A stretch of DNA of 64,000 bases from Verrucomicrobium sp. GAS474 (lineage in GTDB: Bacteria > Verrucomicrobiota > Verrucomicrobiia > Methylacidiphilales > GAS474): positions 2,294,001 to 2,358,000 of the forward strand of contig NZ_LT629781.1 of NCBI RefSeq assembly GCF_900105685.1, given 5' to 3'. The position numbers were made by a program, and so were the translations under genes. Position 1 is the first letter of the stretch. Each line of letters starts with the position of its first letter. The notes below the pieces were generated by a model that was not told where the DNA came from, searched no databases, and saw only the letters and a list, made by a program, of their open reading frames with translations. Below, one piece after another: positions 39,531 to 51,067 of the stretch.

Positions 39531-39556
39531 TTTGCGATTGATCCGCGATTGATTCC
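39524..39556 (+). repeat. Three 11-base tandem repeats across the aguB stop codon
   Basis: CGATTGATTTG, CGATTGATCCG and CGATTGATTCC follow one another. Each contains GATTGA; the first TGA (39528-39530) is the aguB stop. Because the unit is 11 bases, the three TGA triplets fall in all three reading frames. Confidence 0.8.
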
Positions 39557-39578
39557 ACCCTCCGACCCTCCGCTCCCC

Positions 39579-40658
39579 ATGTTCCGTATCGAGACCGGTA
39601 CCCCGGCTGCCGCCGGTTATCAGATGCCCGCCGAATGGGCGCCCCACGCCGCCACGTGGCTGACGTGGCCCCGGCCCGAGGGGATCAGCTTCCCCGGCCG
39701 CTACGACGGCATCGTCCCGCCGATCTGGGCGCGGCTCACCGCCTTGCTTGCCGAGGACGAGGAAGTCCACATCAACGTCTTCTCCGCCGGCCACCGCGCG
39801 GCGGTCGAGGAAGCCCTCCGCGCGGCCCGGGTTCCCTTCGGGGAGGGGACTCGGGTCCGGCTCCACGACTTCCCGGCCTATGAGCCGTGGTGCCGCGATC
39901 ACGGCCCGATCTTCGTGACGAAGGAAGGCGGGGAGCGCGCCATCGTCGATTGGGGTTACAACGCCTGGGGCGGGAAGTATCCTCCCTGCGACCTCGACGA
40001 CCACGTCCCCGTCGAGGTGGCGAAGTTCCGCGGCCTTCCCCTCTACCAGCCGGGCATCGTCATGGAAGGGGGCTCCCTCGACGTGAACGGCGCGGGGACG
40101 CTGCTGACCACCGAGTCGTGCCTTCTCAATCCGAACCGCAATCCCCATCTCACCCGTGCCGACATTGAGAAATACCTGGCCGATTACCTCGGCATCCAAA
40201 AGGTCCTCTGGCTCGGCGACGGCATCCTCGGCGACGACACCGACGGCCACGTCGACGACCTCACCCGGTTCGTCAGCGTCGATACCGTCGTCACGGTGGT
40301 CGAGGACGATCCGAACGACGAGAACTACGCCCCCCTCCGCGAGAACCGGGAGCGGCTCGCGACGATGACGACGGCCTGCGGCCTTCCCCTCCGCGTCGTC
40401 GACCTGCCGATGCCGAAGCCCCTCCATTGCGAAGGCCAGCGCCTCCCGGCCAGCTACGCGAACTTCTATATCGCGAACGGCAAGGTCCTGGTCCCCGTCT
40501 TCAACGACCCCGCCGACGCGAAGGCTTGCGCGATTTTGCAGGAACTTTTCCCCGATCGCCGGGTCATTCCCTTCGACGCCAGCGACCTGATTTGGGGTCT
40601 TGGCGCCCTCCACTGCATCACGCAGCAGGAGCCCTCCGGGGCGGTTGCGAAAAAATAA
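39579..40658 (+). CDS. aguA: Agmatine deiminase
   Basis: The 359-residue guanidino-modifying enzyme turns agmatine into N-carbamoylputrescine. It shows MPAEWAPHAATWLTWP, AYEPWCRDHGPIFV, VMEGGSLDVNGAGTLLTTESCLLNPNRNP, LGDGILGDDTDGHVDDLTRFV (catalytic Asp and His) and the nucleophile Cys 346 in GLGALHCITQQEP. With aguB it gives a complete agmatine-to-putrescine route. The start at 39579 begins the conserved domain; an upstream TTG adds ten residues. Confidence 0.96.
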   Translation: MFRIETGTPAAAGYQMPAEWAPHAATWLTWPRPEGISFPGRYDGIVPPIWARLTALLAEDEEVHINVFSAGHRAAVEEALRAARVPFGEGTRVRLHDFPAYEPWCRDHGPIFVTKEGGERAIVDWGYNAWGGKYPPCDLDDHVPVEVAKFRGLPLYQPGIVMEGGSLDVNGAGTLLTTESCLLNPNRNPHLTRADIEKYLADYLGIQKVLWLGDGILGDDTDGHVDDLTRFVSVDTVVTVVEDDPNDENYAPLRENRERLATMTTACGLPLRVVDLPMPKPLHCEGQRLPASYANFYIANGKVLVPVFNDPADAKACAILQELFPDRRVIPFDASDLIWGLGALHCITQQEPSGAVAKK

Positions 40659-40786: not shown

Positions 40787-41461
40787 ATGAACTGCCGTAT
40801 TCCCTCTCTGAGCGCCGTGGTTTTGACCCTTGCGGTCAGCGTCGGCGCTTTTTCCTCTCTTTTGGCTCAGAGCGACGACGTTTCGCTCAAGTTCAAGGAG
40901 GGAAGCGACGGCCTCAAGGCTGAATTCGTCGATCCCCCCTCGGGCGGTGCCGTCGGGGGTTCCACTGGGTACATCGATTCCCGGAAATGGCTGAAAATCG
41001 ACGCGCAGTACATGGTTAACACGCCTAACGAGGTCCTCCCGGAGGCCAAATTCAAGGTTTACGTCGAGGTCTATGACCTCCAGAAACCGCGGGACAGCCG
41101 GGGCGACAAGGTCGCCATCCTGACCGGCGAGGCGACCTACGTGAACCTCCCGAACGTCCCCTCGGGCCGGGAGCTCCATGTCACCTTCTTCGTCCATCCC
41201 TACACGATCAATCGCTTCGGCGGCGAGAAGAACTTCCATTTCGAGCCCCGCCAGAACATTCACATCGATGCTTACGCGGGTGAGCAGAAGATCGCCTCGA
41301 AGGACGCCTTCGATGTCCCCGCCGCCGACAAGAACTGGTATCAGTCCGAGTCGGAGCGGAAGATTTCCGGCATGATCCTGACCCGGGAGCAGAGCCCCTG
41401 GTCGATGTCCGACACGATCACCTATCCCCAGGCCAAGCTGAAGGCTTCGGCGGCGGAATAA
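40787..41461 (+). CDS. Amuc_1102-like periplasmic protein
   Basis: The 224-residue exported protein has a signal peptide (about 1-27, ending SLLAQS). The body is all-beta in pattern (FKVYVEVYDLQKPRDSRGDKVAILTGEATYVNLPNVPSGRELHVTFFVHPYTINRFGG). By position it corresponds to Amuc_1102 of Akkermansia muciniphila, first gene of the same five-gene order; I recall an immunoglobulin-like fold for that protein. The function is unknown. It is the first gene after the candidate promoter, with the PilM-like gene 24 bases downstream. Confidence 0.72.
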   Translation: MNCRIPSLSAVVLTLAVSVGAFSSLLAQSDDVSLKFKEGSDGLKAEFVDPPSGGAVGGSTGYIDSRKWLKIDAQYMVNTPNEVLPEAKFKVYVEVYDLQKPRDSRGDKVAILTGEATYVNLPNVPSGRELHVTFFVHPYTINRFGGEKNFHFEPRQNIHIDAYAGEQKIASKDAFDVPAADKNWYQSESERKISGMILTREQSPWSMSDTITYPQAKLKASAAE

Positions 41462-41485
41462 TCCTTTTTCCCGGTTCGGTTTTCC

Positions 41486-43201
41486 ATGGCTGCCACTTCT
41501 CCGATTCTCGCGCTCGATATTGGTTCCCACACGGTCAAATTCGGGGAGTTCACCGCAACGAAGGAGGGGGCGCTCACCCTCCACCGTTTCGGGACCGCTC
41601 CCCTCGGCCTCGATCCGAACAAGGACGAGAACCGCTATGCCGCCGTCACCGCCGCCCTCCGCCAGGTGACGGGGAAGGCGACGAAGAGCGGCCAGACCTT
41701 CTTCTCCCTCGCGGGCCATGCCGTCTTCATGCGCGGGGTGAAGCTCCCGCCCGTCGATGCGATGCAGCTCGACCAGATGATCGCCTTCGAGGCGCAGCAG
41801 ATCGTCCCCTTCCCCCTCAGCGAGGTGGTCTGGGACTTCCTCACCCTGTCGGGATCGGGCTCCGAGAAGGAGGCGATCATCGTCGCCGTGAAGACCGACC
41901 TCCTGGAGAGCGAGTACTCCGCCGTCCGGGGCGCGGGACTCCAGCCCTCCCTCGTCGACGTCGGCCCGCTCGCCCTCTACAACGCCTACCGCTACAACTA
42001 TACGCCGACCGACCACTGCGTCCTGCTGGTCGACATCGGCGCGCGTTCGACGAACCTCCTCTTCATCGAGGGGGACCGCCTCTACACCCGCATCCTCCCC
42101 CTCGCCGGGAACACGATCACGCAGACCATCTGCAACGAGTTCCAGGAACCCTTTTCGGTCGCGGAGAAGCTGAAGATCGAGCGCGGCGGCGTCCACCTCG
42201 GCGGCGGCTACGCCCAGCCGGACGACCGGGACAGCGCGCGCCTCTGGAAGCTCGGGCGGACCCTCCTCGGGAAGATCCAGACCGAGATCAACCGCTCCAT
42301 CATCTTCTACCGGAACCAGCAGGGCGGCAGCGCCCCGCAGCAGATCTACCTCACGGGCGGCACCTCGCGCCTTCCCTACCTCGATCATTTCCTGGCGGAG
42401 AAATTCTCCGTGCCGGTCGAGTTCTTCAACCCCCTCCGCAACGTCACCCTCGGCGGCGGCCTCGACCGGAACGGCCTTTCCCTCGCGGGACATGCCTTCG
42501 GCGAAGTCGTCGGCCTCGCCCTGCGCGGCACCGGCCCGACCCCGGCGGCGATCTCGCTCAAGCCGAAGTCGGTCTCCGAGTCGGAAAAGAACAAGAAGCA
42601 GGGGCCGGTCGTCGGCGCCGCGCTCTTCGCCCTCGCCCTCCTCTTCGCCGTCCCGGCGCTCGCCATCTACCTGAAGATGGGGGCCGTCGAGGAGACCGGC
42701 CAGGCCCTCGGCGGCAAGATCGCCGGCCTGAAGAAAGCCGCCGACGCGGTGATCCCCCTCGAAAAGGAGAGCGACGACCTCCAGCGCCGCTTCAAGGCCG
42801 CCGACCGCGTTCTCGAGCAGCGCGACCAGTGGCTCCGCTTCATGAACACGGTGAACGGGAAGCTCCCCGTCGGTGTCTGGATCACCCAGTTCACGCCGAC
42901 GAGCAACGGCCAGTCCCCCGACGCCGAGGGCGGCGACGTTCCCGCCCCCAAGGGGAAGAAGCCCGGCAAGGGGCCCCAGCTCACCCAGGTCGAGATCAAC
43001 GGCATCTGCGAGAAGGACCTCACCCTCGGCACGCTGACCGATTTCGTCCGCTCCCTCGCCGAGACCGGCCTCTTCGACCTGAAGCCCGACCAGGCCTCCA
43101 ACGCCATCGTGAAGGGCGATCCCACCGAGGGGAGCACCCAGCTCGGATGGAGCTTCGTGCTGAGCCTCAAGCTCAAGAACCCCATTGATCTCGCCCCCTA
43201 A
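41486..43201 (+). CDS. PilM-like actin-fold protein fused to a PilN-like membrane part (Amuc_1101-like)
   Basis: The 571-residue protein has a PilM/FtsA-type actin domain at residues 1-350: LALDIGSHTVKFGEF (phosphate 1), LLVDIGARSTNLLFIEGDRL (phosphate 2) and IYLTGGTSRLPYL (adenosine). A basic linker, one membrane helix (about 373-395, VGAALFALALLFAVPALAIYL), a coiled coil and a periplasmic ferredoxin-like part (VEINGICEKDLTLGTLTDFVRSL) follow. In classical type IV pili these are two proteins, PilM and PilN. Akkermansia Amuc_1101 occupies the same place in its cluster. The product would link a cytosolic ring to the periplasm. Confidence 0.88.
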   Translation: MAATSPILALDIGSHTVKFGEFTATKEGALTLHRFGTAPLGLDPNKDENRYAAVTAALRQVTGKATKSGQTFFSLAGHAVFMRGVKLPPVDAMQLDQMIAFEAQQIVPFPLSEVVWDFLTLSGSGSEKEAIIVAVKTDLLESEYSAVRGAGLQPSLVDVGPLALYNAYRYNYTPTDHCVLLVDIGARSTNLLFIEGDRLYTRILPLAGNTITQTICNEFQEPFSVAEKLKIERGGVHLGGGYAQPDDRDSARLWKLGRTLLGKIQTEINRSIIFYRNQQGGSAPQQIYLTGGTSRLPYLDHFLAEKFSVPVEFFNPLRNVTLGGGLDRNGLSLAGHAFGEVVGLALRGTGPTPAAISLKPKSVSESEKNKKQGPVVGAALFALALLFAVPALAIYLKMGAVEETGQALGGKIAGLKKAADAVIPLEKESDDLQRRFKAADRVLEQRDQWLRFMNTVNGKLPVGVWITQFTPTSNGQSPDAEGGDVPAPKGKKPGKGPQLTQVEINGICEKDLTLGTLTDFVRSLAETGLFDLKPDQASNAIVKGDPTEGSTQLGWSFVLSLKLKNPIDLAP

Positions 43202-43210
43202 TCCTCTTCC

Positions 43211-44134
43211 ATGAGCGCGAAAGTTTCCCTTACCCCCCTCCAATGGATCGCCGCCGGCGGCGCCCTCGGCATCGCCCTCCTCGGCGGCGCGGGGCTCTTC
43301 GTCCTTTCGGGCAAGCTCGGCGACGCCCAGGCGGCGCTGGAGCAGCAGTCGTCCGAGTACAAGGGCCTGGTCGGCCGCCGGACCTTCCCGAACGAGCAGA
43401 ACATCGCTACCCTCAAGGCCAACAACGAGGCGGTGAAGCAGGCCGTCGCCGTCGCCGAGAAGCGGCTCCGGGGCGACGACTCCGAGCTCGCCAAGATCAC
43501 CGAGCAGGACCCCATCGCCTTCAAGGAGGTCATCGCGGCCCAGGTCGAGAAGATCCGCCAGGCCGCGGCCAAGGGCGGCGTGAAGATCGAGCCCGCCGCC
43601 AACGAGTTCGCCTTTGCCGCCTACAAGAGCGGCAAGCCCTCCGGCGCTCCGGCGACGAAGGTCCTCGCCAAGCAACTCTTCGCGATCCGCGAGATCTCGA
43701 CGGCGCTCATCGATTCCCACATCGCGGCGATCACCGCCGTCCGACGGACGATGGACGAGGACAAGCCCGGCAATCCCTCGACCCTCGGCTCGTCGAGCCC
43801 CGAGGCGCTCCACGGCGTCATCACCCCCTCGGACGACCACCTCTACACCGTCTACCCTGTCGAGTTCGAGTTCACCGGGACGGAGCGTTCCCTGCGCGAC
43901 GCCCTCGCGGCGCTCTCCCAGAACGGGGCGATCTTCGTCCCCCGCTATCTCACCGTCTCCAGCCTCCGCGCGACGGCCCCCGCGCTCAACCAGCTCGAGA
44001 CCGACTCCCAGCAGACGAACGACAAGGGCAAGCGGCGCACCTTCATCGTCGCCATGGGCGGCGAGATGGTCCATGTCCGGCTCCGCGTCGACCTGATCGA
44101 CTGGGACGGCGGCGCCGCCCCCAAGAAAAAATAG
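43211..44134 (+). CDS. Amuc_1100-like (PilO-like) membrane protein
   Basis: The 307-residue protein has a short cytosolic start and one membrane helix (about 11-33, WIAAGGALGIALLGGAGLFVL). A long coiled coil (LGDAQAALEQQSSEYKGLVGRRTFPNEQNIATLKANNEAV) and a C-terminal mixed domain follow (LYTVYPVEFEFTGTERSLRDALAALSQ, RTFIVAMGGEMVHVRLRVDLIDW). Layout and gene place match Amuc_1100 of Akkermansia muciniphila, known as a TLR2-signalling envelope protein, and the PilO role of type IV pili. Sequence identity could not be measured. It starts 9 bases after the PilM-like gene. Confidence 0.8.
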   Translation: MSAKVSLTPLQWIAAGGALGIALLGGAGLFVLSGKLGDAQAALEQQSSEYKGLVGRRTFPNEQNIATLKANNEAVKQAVAVAEKRLRGDDSELAKITEQDPIAFKEVIAAQVEKIRQAAAKGGVKIEPAANEFAFAAYKSGKPSGAPATKVLAKQLFAIREISTALIDSHIAAITAVRRTMDEDKPGNPSTLGSSSPEALHGVITPSDDHLYTVYPVEFEFTGTERSLRDALAALSQNGAIFVPRYLTVSSLRATAPALNQLETDSQQTNDKGKRRTFIVAMGGEMVHVRLRVDLIDWDGGAAPKKK

Positions 44135-44167
44135 GCCCCCCCTTTCATCCTTTAAACGAAATCGAAC

Positions 44168-45187
44168 ATGGCAGCCGCAGCATCTTGGCATCGCGTCTTT
44201 CTCCTCTCCTCCCTCGTCCTCGTGATGGGCGTGGCGGGATGGGAGATCTATGATTATCCCGGTTCGGTCGGGGAGATCCGCACCCTCGGCACCGGCGGCG
44301 GCACCGGCAAGGCGCTTCCCGCGCTCAACCTGGAGAAGCTCGCGCCGAACCGGGGCGAGTGGGTTTCCCCCACGCCGTGGACCCTGCCCGAGGCGAAGAA
44401 CCAGCTGTTCACCGCCCGCCGCTTCATCTACTTCGCCGACACGAAGGCGGTGAAGCTCGTCGACGACACGGTCCTCATCGCCAACGTCCTTCCCCTCCAG
44501 TGGCTCATCCAGCACGGGATCGACTCGAGCGATCCCGATGTCGCGACCCTCGACACCGACGGCGACGGCTTCGATACCCTGGCCGAGTTCAAGGCCGGAA
44601 CCGACCCGCGCGATCCGAAGAGCCACCCCAGCTACTCCCAGCTCCTCCGCCTGAAGGGCGTCGACTCGAAGTCGTTCCACATGACCTTCGCCAGCCGCAA
44701 CGCGGGCGCGACCGCCGACGACGATCTCTACCAGGTCAACACCCCCGACGGGAAGAAGAGCTCCTACATGGTGAAGATCGGCGACTCCTTCGAGGGTTTC
44801 AAGGTCATCGCCTACCGCCAGAAAGAGGGCGACAAGAAGATCGGCACGATGACCGTCACCGGCGACATCTCCGAATTGGAGCTGAAGAAGGAGGGAACCG
44901 GCGAGACCGTCATCCTCCTCATCCGCGAGGACAAGGACGTGCCGAACCTCACCGCCACCTTCCTCGTCCTCCTGCCCAATTCCTACAACAAGCCCTTCAA
45001 TGTCGCCAAGGGCCAGGAATTCAGCATGGACGTCACCCCCTCCGCCTCGATTCCGGCGGAGACGCTCCACTACCAATTTGTTTCCTCCGACACGGCGGGC
45101 GCCTCCCTCGTGAACCCGGAAACCAAGCAGACGCTCGTCGCCCCGCAGTTGCAGCCGGATGAGTTGAAGCGGTTCAGTGCTAAGTAA
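44168..45187 (+). CDS. Amuc_1099-like exported protein with an EF-hand-type loop
   Basis: The 339-residue protein has an N-terminal hydrophobic anchor (about 8-26, VFLLSSLVLVMGVAGWEIY). A segment with WLIQHGIDSSDPDVATL leads into DTDGDGFDTLAE (residues 129-140), which has Asp at 1, 3, 5, Gly at 6 and Glu at 12 of a canonical calcium loop, then FKAGTDPRDPKS. This is the thrombospondin-type-3/dockerin-like repeat common in exported Verrucomicrobia proteins. The second half is beta-rich (SSYMVKIGDSFEGFKVIAYRQKEGDKKIG). It occupies the Amuc_1099 position between the Amuc_1100-like and secretin genes. Function unknown; calcium binding is inferred. Confidence 0.75.
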   Translation: MAAAASWHRVFLLSSLVLVMGVAGWEIYDYPGSVGEIRTLGTGGGTGKALPALNLEKLAPNRGEWVSPTPWTLPEAKNQLFTARRFIYFADTKAVKLVDDTVLIANVLPLQWLIQHGIDSSDPDVATLDTDGDGFDTLAEFKAGTDPRDPKSHPSYSQLLRLKGVDSKSFHMTFASRNAGATADDDLYQVNTPDGKKSSYMVKIGDSFEGFKVIAYRQKEGDKKIGTMTVTGDISELELKKEGTGETVILLIREDKDVPNLTATFLVLLPNSYNKPFNVAKGQEFSMDVTPSASIPAETLHYQFVSSDTAGASLVNPETKQTLVAPQLQPDELKRFSAK

Positions 45188-45250
45188 GCGGGACTGGTGT
45201 GATTTAAGTTGATTATTACTTTTTTAATTGAAAATATAGTTTCGCCCTAT

Positions 45251-47845
45251 ATGGAAAATATTGTGAGGCCTCTTTCTCGTTTTCGGATTCTTTTCTTCCT
45301 CTCCCTCGCGTCGGGGGCGGGAATCGCTTTTGCCTCGGCCCAGACCACGCCCGCCGTGGCGAAGGTCGAGCAGAGCGAGGAGGCCTATCGCGCCGAACGC
45401 ATGGATCAGATTCGGAAGGCGATCGACGCCGCCGACATCTTCGCGATGAACGGCGATTATGCGAAGGCGGAGGATCGTTACCTCTACGTCATCAAGAACG
45501 TCGACCGCAATTCCCCCATCGGCCAGTCGGCCTATAATCGGGCCGTCGTCAGCATCGCCCAGGTAAACATGCTCGAAGGGCAGGAGGCCGAAAAGAAGGG
45601 CGATTTCGATGGCGCCATTCTCTTTTACAAGAAGGCCCTGGCCGCCGATCCGTCCAACGAAAAGGCCGTTCGTCGCGCCCTGGCCCGCCTCGACGACGCG
45701 AAGCAGCACGACAAGATCGTCCGCCGCGACCCCGAGAAGTCGGAGAAGAACCCCGTCATCACCCCCGAGTTCAAGCAGCAGGTCGCCGACGTGCAGCGCC
45801 TCCTCTTCGAGGGGGACCGCTTCTTCGAGACCGGCCAGTATGCCGAGGCCGACGTCCGCTACCGCAACGTGCTGACGATCGACCCCTACAACAAGGCGGC
45901 CCAGCAGAAGATCGAGCGCCTCGAGAAATACCGCTACCACGCCGCCGAAACGGCGCGGGACGCCACCCGGAAGGAAGCGATGTACCAGGTCGACGCCCGG
46001 TGGACGGAGCGCGAGATCGCCGAGTCGAAGGCCAGCGCGCAGGATCCCGTTTCCGTCTCGGACACGAACATCGTCCGCATCCAGAAGAAGCTCAACGAGA
46101 TCATCATCGACAACGTCTCGTTCAACAACACCCCCGTCGACGATGCCTTCAGGCTCCTCGCCGAGAAGGTCCGCGCCGCCGATCCCGACAAGCAGGGCCT
46201 CAACTTCGTCCTGAAGCTCCAGCCCACCGTCGCCTCCGCCTCGCGGGGCGGCGATGCGGGCGCGCCCGCGAAGAAGGGGGCGGCCCCCGCTCCCGCTCCC
46301 GCCGCCGCGGCCCCGACGCCGGTCACCTTCACCCTGAACAACTCGTCCCTGGCCGAGGTGCTCCGCCTCCTCACCCAGCTCGCCCACATGCGCTGGAAGA
46401 TCGACGAGTACGCCATCAACGTCTACCCCGAGAAGGACGCGCCCGACGTCATGTCGACCCGCACCTTCGTCGTCCCCACCGGCTTCTTCCAGGCCCGCTC
46501 GACCGGGGCCGGGGCGCCCGCCTCCGGCACCGGCGGCAGCGACGCGAGCAAGGTTTCCTTCGACGTGAAGCAGCAGCTCATCGACCAGGGCGTCGACTTC
46601 CCCGCCGGGGCGACGGCGACCTTCCTCGCCGAATCGAGCCGCCTCATCGTCTCCAACACCTCCGAGCAGATCGACCTCATCGACGCCCTCATCCAGGCCC
46701 AGAGCAAGGAAGAGACCCCGATGGTCGAGATCGAGACGAAGTTTGCCGAGTTCACCGACGACGCGATGCGGGAACTCTCCTTCAACTGGGCGACGAGCTT
46801 CCAGGGGCCGACTTCGGCTTTGGCCCTCAATCAGGGGCTGAGCGGCGTTGGAGTCACTCCCACCACGCTGACTTCCTCCAGTAATAACAGCCTGCACAAG
46901 AACGAGCCCGGCGTGCTTGCCCAGACCGCCTTGCGGGGGCACAACGACATGAGCGGCAGCACGCTCGACAGCCTCCTCGCCGCGAACGGCGGGAATGCCG
47001 CCAGCCAGACCAATTCGGGCGCTTCCCTCCTGTTGGGTGGGACGATTCAGGGCCAGGGCGTCGCGCTTCTCGTGAACATGATCGACCAGCTCAAGGGGGT
47101 CGACCTCCTCCTCGCCCCGAAGGTGACGACGAAGAATGGCAGCAAGGCCCGCGTCGAGGTCACCCGGGAAATGACCTATCCGACCCGGGTTGAGAAGCCG
47201 AGCTACTCGAGCACCGGTTTAGCCTGGGATCAGAGCGAAGGTACCGCCCAAGTGATCGTGGTAACGCCCCCCGCCCTTTCCGAATTCAAGACGCCGAAGG
47301 CCGATCTCGGTGCCGATGTCGGCATCCAGATGGAAATCAAGCCGACGGCCTATCCCAATCGCCTGATCGATCTCGAAATTACGAAGCTGACGGTCGTCGA
47401 TTTTGAGGGATTCGTGAACTACGGCTCGACGATCAATCAGGGTGATTCTCTGACCTCGAACATCGATATTCTCTCGACCTACAAGATTCCGAAGCCGGTC
47501 TTCAACTCCCGCTCGTTGACGACCCAGCTGCAGGTCCTCGACGGTGAGACGATCGCCCTCGGCGGCCTCATCCGCGAGGAGACCGAGAAAATCAACGACA
47601 GCGTGCCGGTTCTCGGCGATATCCCCGTGGTGGGCCGCCTCTTCCAGAGCAAGGTCGATCGAAAGATCAAGAAGAACCTGATCGTCTTCGTCACGGCCCG
47701 GATCGTCCGGTCGACCGGCAAGCCGAAGTATGCCGAAACCATCGTGGCGGCCCCCGTGCCTGCCCCGGCGCAAACGCAGACGATGACGATGAACGCGGCG
47801 GCGACCCCCGCCGCCACCCCCGTCTCGGCGACGGCGACTCCCTAA
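45251..47845 (+). CDS. Secretin 1 (PilQ/GspD family, Amuc_1098-like)
   Basis: The 864-residue outer-membrane channel protein has a signal peptide (to about residue 30) and TPR-like helices (about 40-240, with NGDYAKAEDRYLYVIKN and TGQYAEADVRYRNVLTIDPYNKAAQQ). N-domains follow (FNNTPVDDAFRLLAEKV, TLNNSSLAEVLRLLTQLAHMRWKI). The secretin core begins at MVEIETKFAEF and includes LLAPKVTTKNGSKARVEV and the signature VPVLGDIPVVGRLFQSK. The C-terminus is Ala/Pro/Thr-rich. The ATG at 45251 follows an AT-rich 60-base stretch without a clear ribosome site; an in-frame TTG at 45209 would extend it by 14 residues. Confidence 0.9.
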   Translation: MENIVRPLSRFRILFFLSLASGAGIAFASAQTTPAVAKVEQSEEAYRAERMDQIRKAIDAADIFAMNGDYAKAEDRYLYVIKNVDRNSPIGQSAYNRAVVSIAQVNMLEGQEAEKKGDFDGAILFYKKALAADPSNEKAVRRALARLDDAKQHDKIVRRDPEKSEKNPVITPEFKQQVADVQRLLFEGDRFFETGQYAEADVRYRNVLTIDPYNKAAQQKIERLEKYRYHAAETARDATRKEAMYQVDARWTEREIAESKASAQDPVSVSDTNIVRIQKKLNEIIIDNVSFNNTPVDDAFRLLAEKVRAADPDKQGLNFVLKLQPTVASASRGGDAGAPAKKGAAPAPAPAAAAPTPVTFTLNNSSLAEVLRLLTQLAHMRWKIDEYAINVYPEKDAPDVMSTRTFVVPTGFFQARSTGAGAPASGTGGSDASKVSFDVKQQLIDQGVDFPAGATATFLAESSRLIVSNTSEQIDLIDALIQAQSKEETPMVEIETKFAEFTDDAMRELSFNWATSFQGPTSALALNQGLSGVGVTPTTLTSSSNNSLHKNEPGVLAQTALRGHNDMSGSTLDSLLAANGGNAASQTNSGASLLLGGTIQGQGVALLVNMIDQLKGVDLLLAPKVTTKNGSKARVEVTREMTYPTRVEKPSYSSTGLAWDQSEGTAQVIVVTPPALSEFKTPKADLGADVGIQMEIKPTAYPNRLIDLEITKLTVVDFEGFVNYGSTINQGDSLTSNIDILSTYKIPKPVFNSRSLTTQLQVLDGETIALGGLIREETEKINDSVPVLGDIPVVGRLFQSKVDRKIKKNLIVFVTARIVRSTGKPKYAETIVAAPVPAPAQTQTMTMNAAATPAATPVSATATP

Positions 47846-47866
47846 TACTTTCTTCCATCCCTCTCC

Positions 47867-50800
47867 ATGAACCTCGCCCGCCTCTTCCGCACCGCGCCGG
47901 CCTCGCTGGCTTTTCTGGCCCTGCCCTTGAGCCTTAGCTTGACGCTGACTCTGCCGGGAAGCCTCTCGACCGCGTTCGCCGCCGATCCGGCTTCCGCCGA
48001 TGTCGCCGCCGCGCTCCAGAACCAGCTGTCCCAGTATCAGGCCTCCCTCTCCCAGGCGGCCGATCTCGAGAAGCAGAAGGCTCCCGAGAAGGCCCGCGCC
48101 ATCTATTTGACCCTCCTCGGCACCGTGCAGCCCGCCGGGGCGACCGCGCCCGTCTACAAGCAGGCGGCCCAGGGCCTTTTCCGGACGAATTCCGGCCTGA
48201 TCCTTCAGGCCCGCGACCGGAACGACCTCGCCGCCATGGAGACCTACCTCCAGAGCAGCCTCGCCTACGCGCCGAACGACGCGGGCCTCAAGGCCTCGCT
48301 CGCCAAGGTCCAGGCGGCCCGGCAATACGCGGCGACCCAGTCGGCCGCGCCCGCCGCCGTGGCGGCCGCCGCGCCCGCCTCGTCGGCCGCGACGGCGCTG
48401 GCGCAGGCCAGCGACGCCGAGAAGGCCGGTCAGACCGATGCCGCCCGCACCGCCTACCTCTCGATTCTCAAGACGAGTTCGCCGAGCGGAGACAACGCTG
48501 CCGTCTACAAGCAGGCCCAGCTCGGCCTCTTCCGGACGAATTCGGCCCTGATCGTTCAGGCCCGCAGCCGGGGCGACCTCGCCGGGATGGAAACCTACCT
48601 CCGCAGCAGCCTCGAATATGCCCCGGACGATGCCGGGTTGAAGGACGCCCTCGCCAAGGTGCAGGCGGCCCAGGCCCAGGCCCGCTCCACGGCGGCGAAT
48701 GCCCAGCCTCCGCTTCCCACGGCCACGGCAACGATCACTCCCGCCACCGCGGCGGCCACGGCCCCCGCTGACAGCAGCCCCGCCGGCCTCGCCGCGGCCC
48801 GCGAAGCGATCCAGAAGGACAAGGAACTCCGCCAGCTCCTTCCCACCCTCGACCAGGCAGCCCAGCTCGAGGCTCAGGGTCAGTGGGACAAGGCCCGGCA
48901 GATTTATCTGACGGCGCTGACCTCGCTGACGCCCGCCCCCGCGACCGCCGCCGCCTATGACCGGGCCGAGCAGGGGCTCCTCCGGGTCAACGCCCAACTG
49001 ATCGACCAGGCGCTCGCCAAGGGCGATCTCGCCACGGCCGAGATGCTCCTCCAGAACAGCATCGTCTACGCTCCCGACGACCGGAGCCTGAAGGCCTCCC
49101 TGGCCAAGGTCGAGGCCGCCCGACGCGATCCTCAGGACACCCAGACCTTCGTCAACACCGCCAACACCCCGGCCCTCGCCGAGAAGGTCGACCGCGTCGA
49201 GTCGCTCTTCGCCGAGGCCGAGCAGGCTCGGAAGACCGGTCAATACGATCTGGCGACGACCAAGCTCAAGGCGATCCTCCAGATCGACCCGTCGAACGAG
49301 GCGGCCCAGGGGCGGCTTGCCAAAATTTCGGCTGAAAAAGAGGCCTACGCCGCCACGGCGATCTCGGCGAATCGCGAGCGTCGCCTCCGCGAGGTCGAGG
49401 GGAAGTGGAACGTCCCCGTCCAGGGCCCGACGAACCAGCCCGGTCCCGACGCGAACGGGGGGCCGATCACCCGCTCGAACGACTTCAAGATCACCCAGAA
49501 GCTGAAGTCGATCATGATTCCCCAGCTCGACCTCTCCGAGCAGAGCCTCCAGAGCGCGATCGACTTCCTCAACGACAAGGTGCGCCAGCTCGATCCCGAG
49601 CGGATCGGGGTCAACTTCATTCCCCGTCCCGACGCCCTCCGCCAGTCGAAGCCGATCACCCTCAGCCTCCGCAACATCCCGCTCGGCGAGGCGATCCGCT
49701 ACATCGCCCAGAACGCGCAGGTGAAATACAAGGTCGATCAGGCTGCGGTCTTCTTCATCCCGCTGACCGACTCGACCGAGAATCTCCTCAGCCGCGACTT
49801 CGTCCTCCCGCCCGGCTTCTTCAGCTCGGCCTCGGCCGGAAGCGCGGCAGGCGGCGATAGCGGATCGACCCGCCGCCGCGGCGCCGCCGCCGACGCCTCC
49901 GCCGCCGCGAGCGGCGGTTCCCAGGACGTGAAGGAACAGCTGATCGCCAAGGGAGTCGAGTTCAACGCCGAAGGGGCGAACGCCACCTACCTCCCCGCCG
50001 CGAGCGTCCTCCGGGTCCGCAACACCTCCTCGCAGCTCGATCTCCTCGAGGCGATCGTCAACGCGACGAGCAAGCAGACCCTGATGGTCAACATCGAGGC
50101 GAAGTTCGTCGAGATCAACCAGACCGACCTCAACGACCTCAGCGTCGACTGGTCTCTCTCCCCGCTGACGGGGGTGATGAAATTGAATTCTCCCTTCTTT
50201 GCGACCTCGTTCCGGGGAGCCAACGGGATGAACGCCAACAACCTCGACTACCTTGAGAAAATCGCCGGGACCGGTTCGGGCGGGAGTTCCTCTTCGACAG
50301 GATTGGCCACAGGGGTACGCAATCAGGCTCTCTTCAGCGGCCTCCTGAGCTGGCAGAAGTATCTGGCGGCGCTGAACGCCCTCTCCCAGAAGACGAGCAC
50401 CGACCTTCTCTCCAGCCCCTCGCTTCGGGCGAAGACCGGTAACGTCTCGAAGATCGCGATTAGCCGGACGTTCTTCTATCCGACCCGGTATGATCCGCCG
50501 ACCGCGCTCTCGATCTCGGTCCCCAGCGGCAGCGCCAGCGGCACGACGCTTATTCCTCCTCCGGCGGTCATTCCCTATGTCCCGACCGAGTTCGATCACC
50601 GGGAAATTGGCGTCGAGTTGGCGGTGACGCCGACCGTCGGCGGTGACAATCGAACGGTCGACCTGAGCTTCGATACGATCCGGACGACCGACTTTGAAGG
50701 GTTCATCAATTACGGTTCTCCGATCCAGATTCCGGCCGCGAATCAAGAACCGGTGACCCTTTCCGACAACGTCCTGCTCCAGCCGGTCTTCGCGATCCGC

Positions 50801-51067
50801 AATGTGCAGACGAAGGTGGCGCTGCGGGACGGCTACACCGTCGTCCTCGGCGGCCTGATCCGGGAAGATATCCAGACGATCAACGACAAGGTGCCGTTCC
50901 TCGGCGACCTGCCCGCCGTCGGCCGGTTCTTCCAGTCGAAGGCGAAGCAGAGCGTGAAGCGCAACCTGCTGATCTTCGTCAATGCCCGGATCGTGCGGCC
51001 CGACGGGCAGCCGCTCAATCCGCTTGAGAGCGACGCCCCCCCGGCGACCTCGACGGCGGCGCGGTAG
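47867..51067 (+). CDS. Secretin 2, long paralogue with three N-terminal repeats
   Basis: The 1066-residue outer-membrane channel protein has a signal peptide to about residue 38. Three repeats of about 92 residues follow (about 62-152, 178-269, 328-421), each running ...A.LE..G..DKAR.IYL..L...P......VYK.A..GL.R.N..LI.QA...DLA..E..L..S..YAPDD..LKASLAKVEAA, joined by Ala/Pro-rich linkers. A fourth half-repeat lies near 446-490. N-domains (LSLRNIPLGEAIRYIAQNAQV) and a secretin core (NIEAKFVEINQTDL, LLSSPSLRAKTGNVSKI, VPFLGDLPAVGRFFQSK) complete it. It starts 21 bases after secretin 1 and probably shares its transcript. Confidence 0.9.
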   Translation: MNLARLFRTAPASLAFLALPLSLSLTLTLPGSLSTAFAADPASADVAAALQNQLSQYQASLSQAADLEKQKAPEKARAIYLTLLGTVQPAGATAPVYKQAAQGLFRTNSGLILQARDRNDLAAMETYLQSSLAYAPNDAGLKASLAKVQAARQYAATQSAAPAAVAAAAPASSAATALAQASDAEKAGQTDAARTAYLSILKTSSPSGDNAAVYKQAQLGLFRTNSALIVQARSRGDLAGMETYLRSSLEYAPDDAGLKDALAKVQAAQAQARSTAANAQPPLPTATATITPATAAATAPADSSPAGLAAAREAIQKDKELRQLLPTLDQAAQLEAQGQWDKARQIYLTALTSLTPAPATAAAYDRAEQGLLRVNAQLIDQALAKGDLATAEMLLQNSIVYAPDDRSLKASLAKVEAARRDPQDTQTFVNTANTPALAEKVDRVESLFAEAEQARKTGQYDLATTKLKAILQIDPSNEAAQGRLAKISAEKEAYAATAISANRERRLREVEGKWNVPVQGPTNQPGPDANGGPITRSNDFKITQKLKSIMIPQLDLSEQSLQSAIDFLNDKVRQLDPERIGVNFIPRPDALRQSKPITLSLRNIPLGEAIRYIAQNAQVKYKVDQAAVFFIPLTDSTENLLSRDFVLPPGFFSSASAGSAAGGDSGSTRRRGAAADASAAASGGSQDVKEQLIAKGVEFNAEGANATYLPAASVLRVRNTSSQLDLLEAIVNATSKQTLMVNIEAKFVEINQTDLNDLSVDWSLSPLTGVMKLNSPFFATSFRGANGMNANNLDYLEKIAGTGSGGSSSSTGLATGVRNQALFSGLLSWQKYLAALNALSQKTSTDLLSSPSLRAKTGNVSKIAISRTFFYPTRYDPPTALSISVPSGSASGTTLIPPPAVIPYVPTEFDHREIGVELAVTPTVGGDNRTVDLSFDTIRTTDFEGFINYGSPIQIPAANQEPVTLSDNVLLQPVFAIRNVQTKVALRDGYTVVLGGLIREDIQTINDKVPFLGDLPAVGRFFQSKAKQSVKRNLLIFVNARIVRPDGQPLNPLESDAPPATSTAAR

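Follow-up and report, generated by a model that had tools for sequence, protein, structure and literature searches.

Introduction

Secretins are usually regarded as homo-oligomers. A distribution over two genes is found for RhcC1/RhcC2 of rhizobial type III secretion, which are one secretin split into two pieces.

TPR lipoproteins of the PilF/TadD kind act as pilotins on secretins, according to the part of PMC10499894 available to us. In Akkermansia, Amuc_1098 is described as an abundant outer-membrane protein and its N-terminal TPRs are likened to pilotins (PMC4960237, available in part), while both Amuc_1100 and Amuc_1098 have been studied as bioactive Akkermansia proteins (PMC13119276, likewise available in part). 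Both the TPR-secretin architecture and the cluster of Amuc_1098-1102 genes have been described before. On the other hand, a literature search that covered few subscription journals found no report of paired paralogous or hetero-oligomeric secretins, nor of such a pair in Verrucomicrobia.

Here, we analysed a stretch of 64,000 nt from Verrucomicrobium sp. GAS474 (contig NZ_LT629781.1, positions 2,294,001 to 2,358,000), called the window in the following, which holds two adjacent TPR-secretin genes encoding SecA and SecB. We read them as a type IV pilus gate of two obligate secretin paralogs, in which the arm of SecB is a lineage-specific docking extension, and give this reading a probability of roughly 0.48.

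Operon and genomic setting

The operon comprises six genes on the + strand (40787-51067), i.e., Amuc_1102-, 1101-, 1100- and 1099-like genes followed by the two secretins. SecA is the adjacent first secretin that a preliminary description of the window had pointed out.

40787..41461, +, Amuc_1102-like gene, 224 aa (NF042424 E 3.7e-9, under cut-off; position matched in relatives)
41486..43201, +, Amuc_1101-like PilM gene, 571 aa, with C-terminal extension (PilM_2 E 2.6e-37; NF045709 E 3.8e-145)
43211..44134, +, Amuc_1100-like gene, 307 aa (NF038287 E 8.6e-28, under cut-off)
44168..45187, +, Amuc_1099-like gene, 339 aa (NF042425 E 1.9e-28, above cut-off)
45209..47845, +, SecA, first TPR-secretin, 878 aa as called (Secretin E 1.3e-27; NF042912 E 4.7e-153)
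47867..51067, +, SecB, second TPR-secretin, 1066 aa (Secretin E 7.7e-28; NF042912 E 4.3e-158)

This gene order is kept in relatives. The Amuc_1099- and Amuc_1100-like proteins have no Pfam match, and for the latter no solved relative was found by sequence. Directly upstream lies an ORF (39549-40658, +, 369 aa) for a putative agmatine deiminase, judged by its motif, and downstream follows an ABC transporter gene from 51157 on.

The genome (G000) is a single contig of 3.76 Mb in which PilB-, PilC- and PilT-type genes are present, which is a statement on presence alone. A separate secretin at about 2.09-2.10 Mb adjoins T2SSE/T2SSF-type genes. Outside the window, two adjacent PilB-type ATPase genes are located beside a PilC-type gene (G000:C1:3070295-3073136). 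Such a close pair of PF00437 genes occurs in 6/6 genomes of one comparison. In another, 12 genomes were searched and 10 had matches, 9 of which show the pair within about 3 kb; it is found equally with one or two operon secretins.

Domain layout of SecB

In SecB, three units of about 95 residues are followed by R4, which is a fourth, degenerate and shorter TPR, and then by the N0, KH and secretin barrel domains, with the Pfam secretin domain at residues 838-1044 (E 7.7e-28).

47987..48346, +, SecB unit R1, residues 41-160, five helices, read as extra copy (alignment, model, unit profile)
48386..48697, +, SecB unit R2, residues 174-277, five helices, read as extra copy (alignment, model, unit profile)
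48698..48778, +, Ala/Pro/Thr-rich linker 2, residues 278-304, pLDDT mostly <50 (model; fast-changing compared to congener G002)
48779..49126, +, SecB unit R3, residues 305-420, five helices, read as ancestral unit (alignment, model, unit profile)
49169..49408, +, R4, shorter TPR and long helix, residues 435-514 (Pfam, model; aligns with the SecA TPR)
49481..49771, +, N0-like domain, residues 539-635 (match to EscC N0 3gr5; weak STN, E 0.0085)
49778..50074, +, KH-type N domain (N3-like), residues 638-736 (GspD matches from about residue 638 of the model onward)
50078..51010, +, secretin barrel and gate, residues 738-1048 (Pfam, model, structure comparison)

The three internal repeats in front of the channel domain, as proposed in the preliminary description, are borne out. 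Alignment scores for R1/R2, R1/R3 and R2/R3 are 283, 240 and 207, compared to shuffle maxima of 69, 60 and 57 (300 shuffles per pair), and protein identities amount to 60/96, 55/101 and 46/98 columns, respectively. On the DNA level, copies are located at 48136-48320, 48487-48671 and 48937-49121; over 185 bases, the second shares 79% and the third 69% identity with the first. For R4 versus R1-R3, the shuffle comparison is marginal (scores 43-52, shuffle maxima 50-57). Internal duplication and the Ala/Pro-rich linkers between the units had been correctly recognized, and the units are probably TPR-like, as proposed. The expected two to three helices per repeat have to be revised, since the structure model confidently predicts five, with low-confidence stretches between R1 and R2 as well as between R2 and R3. 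The suggested binding of peptidoglycan finds no backing, i.e., no AMIN, LysM or SPOR domain is listed for SecB (Pfam, E up to 0.1).

This AlphaFold2 model of SecB was computed from 70 sequences and has a mean pLDDT of 78.6 and a pTM of 0.38, which is too low to fix how the units are arranged with respect to the barrel. An arm reaching into the periplasm is plausible. For the AlphaFold2 alignments, 68 and 47 locus proteins were chosen among the 101 secretin ORFs of 78 loci, where the later start was used for one ORF.

SecA has the same order with a single TPR unit (residues 63-166, unit profile) that is followed by a TPR. While its TPR_2 and TPR_11 matches are above the Pfam cut-off, the best TPR matches of SecB stay below the gathering score (20.5 vs 23.5 bits) and cover mainly R4. 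Structural comparison of the SecB units with TPR chains yields Z values of about 9-10, which helical repeats also reach by chance. The N0-like domain aligns to EscC N0 (3gr5, VIA-align) with Z 9.6 and an rmsd of 2.5 over 85 aligned residues.

Conservation of the secretin pair

An Amuc_1101/PilM-like gene (E up to 1e-20) was found in 25/40 relatives, and strong Amuc_1098-family secretins occur in those same 25. All 25 PilM-bearing relatives have two secretin genes and each operon has one PilM gene; within this count, contig ends or apparent frameshifts interrupt one or both secretins in G001, G002, G005, G006, G008, G017, G022 and G029. The preliminary description would have been refuted by a second secretin that is a recent local copy lacking from most genomes with the operon, which is not the case in these 25 relatives. 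Genes split over two frames, by a real frameshift or an assembly error, are secA of G001 (L036:7852-10417), secB of G005 and secA of G029.

The 15 relatives without a PilM gene include all 8 genomes of family f8 within the set (G009, G014, G019, G023, G027, G031, G035, G038). These are near-complete and carry neither the secretin pair nor the PilM gene; apparently, f8 lost the operon as a whole. For two of them (G031 and G038) there is also no PF00437 match at E 1e-90. In two further genomes without the operon (G011:C178 and G025:C190; loci L031 and L032), several ORFs of 912-1093 aa match the N-domain part of the Amuc_1098 profile only (about 245-460), some of them repeatedly.

Within a sample of the class, 166/189 genomes show a family match (E 1e-30). 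Many loci of other families have a single operon copy, i.e., the machine itself does not require two secretins. In families f11 and f32, additional secretin copies lie apart from the operon.

Ancestry of SecA and SecB

We computed a tree for the region from N0 onward using 90 rows, i.e., the 91-row secretin set without L041_A. Outside the 91-row set are secretin frames below 600 aa, split or at contig ends (G001, G002, G005, G006, G029); outside the tree are also G008, G017, G022 and a further tandem secretin pair observed in family f20 (G053). One row labelled unlinked (L087_U) is on a 3.5 kb contig, which makes its label unsure.

The A copies (19 rows) and B copies (20 rows) of the window's order form separate branches with an SH-aLRT of 99 each, and together they are one clade (100/99, mixture model). 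Two further clades are formed by the 12 A and the 12 B copies from other tandem families, with f23 standing apart. A common origin of all tandem pairs was rejected by AU tests on 33 and 23 chosen rows, with p-values of 1.7e-5 (A with A) and 2.6e-5 (B with B) for LG+G4 and of 3.5e-4 and 5.6e-4 for the mixture model. The A and B copies of the other families as one clade give an AU p of 0.159. This implies either two or more origins of tandem pairs or their separate homogenisation; an ancient duplication with subsequent gene conversion in each lineage may give a like pattern. A mirror-tree comparison did not single out the A-B combination (partial r 0.225 and 0.189).

Divergence between the paralogs

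To describe what tells SecA from SecB, we compared 17 rows each of A and B from the order, leaving out six partial or lone rows and the f23 pair. This results in 20 paralog-diagnostic columns, compared to a maximum of 1 for label shuffles, which ignore relatedness. Eight of these 20 fall on two strands that the model predicts for the barrel:

50096..50134, +, residues 744-756, paralog-diagnostic strand (selected post hoc)
50387..50398, +, residues 841-844, paralog-diagnostic strand (selected post hoc)

The hypergeometric p of 2e-9 for this clustering is descriptive only, since the stretch was picked post hoc. The columns are mostly at even positions, i.e., on one face of the strands. Three residues (Q752, Q841, P937) are invariant in 19/19 single-copy operon homologs. 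SecB retains them and SecA for the most part does not; at other diagnostic columns, it is SecB that departs. Such paralog-specific conservation implies that SecA and SecB are different parts, and a mixed or an alternative gate, as suggested in the preliminary description, may apply. For the other tandem families, we obtain 39 diagnostic columns, many in the TPR unit and none on strands 744-756/841-844. A repetition of the barrel-strand divergence in that lineage was rejected (0/32 core columns on those strands).

The two genes are close cistrons. The intergenic distance is -4 in 9/17 intact order pairs (window counted) and 5-27 bases in 7 more; for locus L038 a distance of -53 was obtained, where the start has probably been called too early. 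No Shine-Dalgarno-like sequence was seen in the 21-base gap before the window's SecB.

These data bear on two other explanations. According to the first, which is the main rival and which we consider possible and yet doubtful, SecA and SecB form two separate homomeric channels on one shared inner-membrane platform of the PilM type, each used for a different state or cargo. Both secretin domains are complete and confidently predicted, the paralogs are constrained differently, and the second copy off the operon in f11 (Akkermansia-like) and f32 fits independent use. However, strict pairing throughout the order together with close cistrons fits a fixed ratio better than alternative use, and there is only one PilM gene per operon. 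The second and rather improbable explanation makes SecA an assembly or regulatory partner of SecB, e.g., a TPR pilotin-like chaperone, that has lost its gate function. This would agree with the loss from SecA of residues that are invariant in single-copy relatives, with a SecA barrel modelled at lower confidence than the SecB barrel, with TPR lipoproteins being pilotins on other secretins (PMC10499894, available part) and with the likening of the Amuc_1098 TPRs to pilotins (PMC4960237, available part). SecA nevertheless keeps a full secretin domain (E 1.3e-27) and evolves at a pace that equals that of SecB (mean distances 2.15 and 2.20), and no clear lipobox pattern was found, with a loose match in 7/91 secretins.

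Age of the three-unit arm

To relate the SecB units to other family members, each was scored against the N-termini of 89 homologs. Unit 3 reaches the best mean local score in all four homolog groups (63.6, 69.3, 68.5, 66.0), while units 1 and 2 range from 35.9 to 54.8. Judged by these scores, R3 is the ancestral unit, present in nearly all relatives, and R1 and R2 are extra copies.

The stretch before N0 spans 539 aa in the window's SecB compared to at most 352 in the other secretins of the 91-row set, where the short value of L051_B is due to a truncated frame. Searching 215 proteins (the same genes being counted under two locus names) with a profile of the unit from which the window's SecB was left out, we find three full units in the latter only. 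Two matches are present in 17 proteins, where most second ones are weak (13-25 bits) and over the R4 region; 11 proteins, mostly cut frames, show no match. A contig-end fragment of congener G002 (L120) contains units 1 and 2 completely as well as the start of unit 3, while congener G001 has a single unit (L036_B, 275 aa before N0). Units 1 and 2 thus arose within the genus, before the split of G000 and G002, such that the duplication called recent in the preliminary description is recent at the genus level only. From this distribution, the triple arm is a local elaboration that is far younger than the secretin pair.

Two secretins of genus g17 (L183 and L184 from G172 and G104; 1032 and 1027 aa) have an extra N-terminal TPR unit with unit-profile scores of 27.9 and 30.3 bits, respectively, which suggests a separate duplication of the unit in that genus. 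The SecB of genus g12 (L046, L050, L053, L054) has 335-352 aa before N0 with one TPR unit; its long stretch is a low-complexity Pro/Thr/Ala-rich tail that holds no extra unit. Taking the window's arm and this tail together, the N-terminus of B, not of A, was lengthened in two ways within the order.

We also compared replacement and silent changes with regard to G002. For R1, R2, SecA and linker 2, the pN/pS values are 0.235/0.509, 0.229/0.631, 0.168/0.468 and 0.432/0.561, respectively. The deficit of replacement relative to silent changes implies that R1 and R2 are constrained, linker 2 much less so. Within the window's SecB, R1 and R2 differ by a pS of 0.438, i.e., below the 0.509 and 0.631 observed between G000 and G002, which hints at homogenisation between the units.

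That SecB is a recent, dispensable local copy with neutral repeats is very hard to uphold. R1 and R2 are indeed confined to two of three congeners and the linkers change fast, but R1 and R2 are constrained, and the presence of SecB in 25/25 operon-bearing relatives, in a clade of its own, rules out a recent local origin of the gene.

Proposed working of the paired gate

Returning to the gate of two obligate paralogs, the operon would supply a verrucomicrobial type IV pilus with its alignment-and-gate complex, made up of PilM, further pilus-like parts and a secretin. SecA and SecB would stem from a tandem duplication in the stem of the order, be read from adjacent cistrons and split the gate job. 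SecB would be the more canonical pore former, as it keeps the residues invariant in single-copy relatives, while SecA has diverged there.

Our leading guess is that both are part of one channel complex, which may be a mixed ring or two stacked rings. The more specific notion of a hetero-oligomeric secretin with mixed or stacked rings and a B-only three-unit TPR skirt, where tandem doubling took place more than once in Verrucomicrobiota, is put forward only tentatively. The N-terminal TPR unit, found in place of the AMIN domains of classical PilQ, would dock the gate to periplasmic partners. By two duplications of the SecB unit in the window's lineage, a flexible three-unit arm would have emerged that probably serves the existing docking role with more reach or valency and brings no new activity.

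Compared to the triple arm, we consider the paired gate the more interesting half of the finding. A paralog pair kept across the order, with a separate parallel elsewhere, is a natural test of mixed secretin rings, and the same pair could show which barrel residues set subunit identity. The triple arm in turn illustrates how the putative periplasmic dock of a gate can grow longer inside one genus. Knowing the role of the parent machine in relatives would help to interpret Amuc_1100 and Amuc_1098.

Comparison with known secretins

Amuc_1098 (PilQ, NF042912) of Akkermansia muciniphila has N-terminal TPRs before the secretin domain (PMC4960237, available part), and SecA and SecB show the same layout of TPR unit, N domains and secretin. 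Their NF042912 scores (SecB 527.8, SecA 511.1 bits) are under the 750-bit equivalog cut-off, such that homology over the whole profile makes them relatives rather than equivalogs. Amuc_1098 is encoded beside the Amuc_1099-1102 genes and the window's secretins likewise directly follow Amuc_1102-1099-like genes. In contrast, Amuc_1098-like operons of f11 have one secretin with a second copy elsewhere, while the window's operon has two, and Amuc_1098 does not show the triple unit of SecB.

Type IVa PilQ (V. cholerae 6w6m, P. aeruginosa 6ve2/6ve4) has N0, KH and barrel fold in common with the window's secretins, and Foldseek ranks 6w6m first among its matches (E 2e-21). A PilM-type gene along with PilB/PilC/PilT in the genome (presence only) is a further likeness. 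The difference is in the N-terminus, where type IVa PilQ has AMIN domains and SecB TPR helices. Neither the PilQ model TIGR02515 (91.9 and 91.6 bits for the two secretins, cut-off 284.35) nor the GspD model TIGR02517 (110.6 and 107 bits, cut-off 351.35) is reached.

PilF and TadD are separate lipoproteins, while here the TPRs are fused to the secretin N-terminus. Finally, RhcC1/RhcC2 likewise distribute secretin function over two genes; instead of two pieces of one secretin, the window encodes two full-length paralogs.
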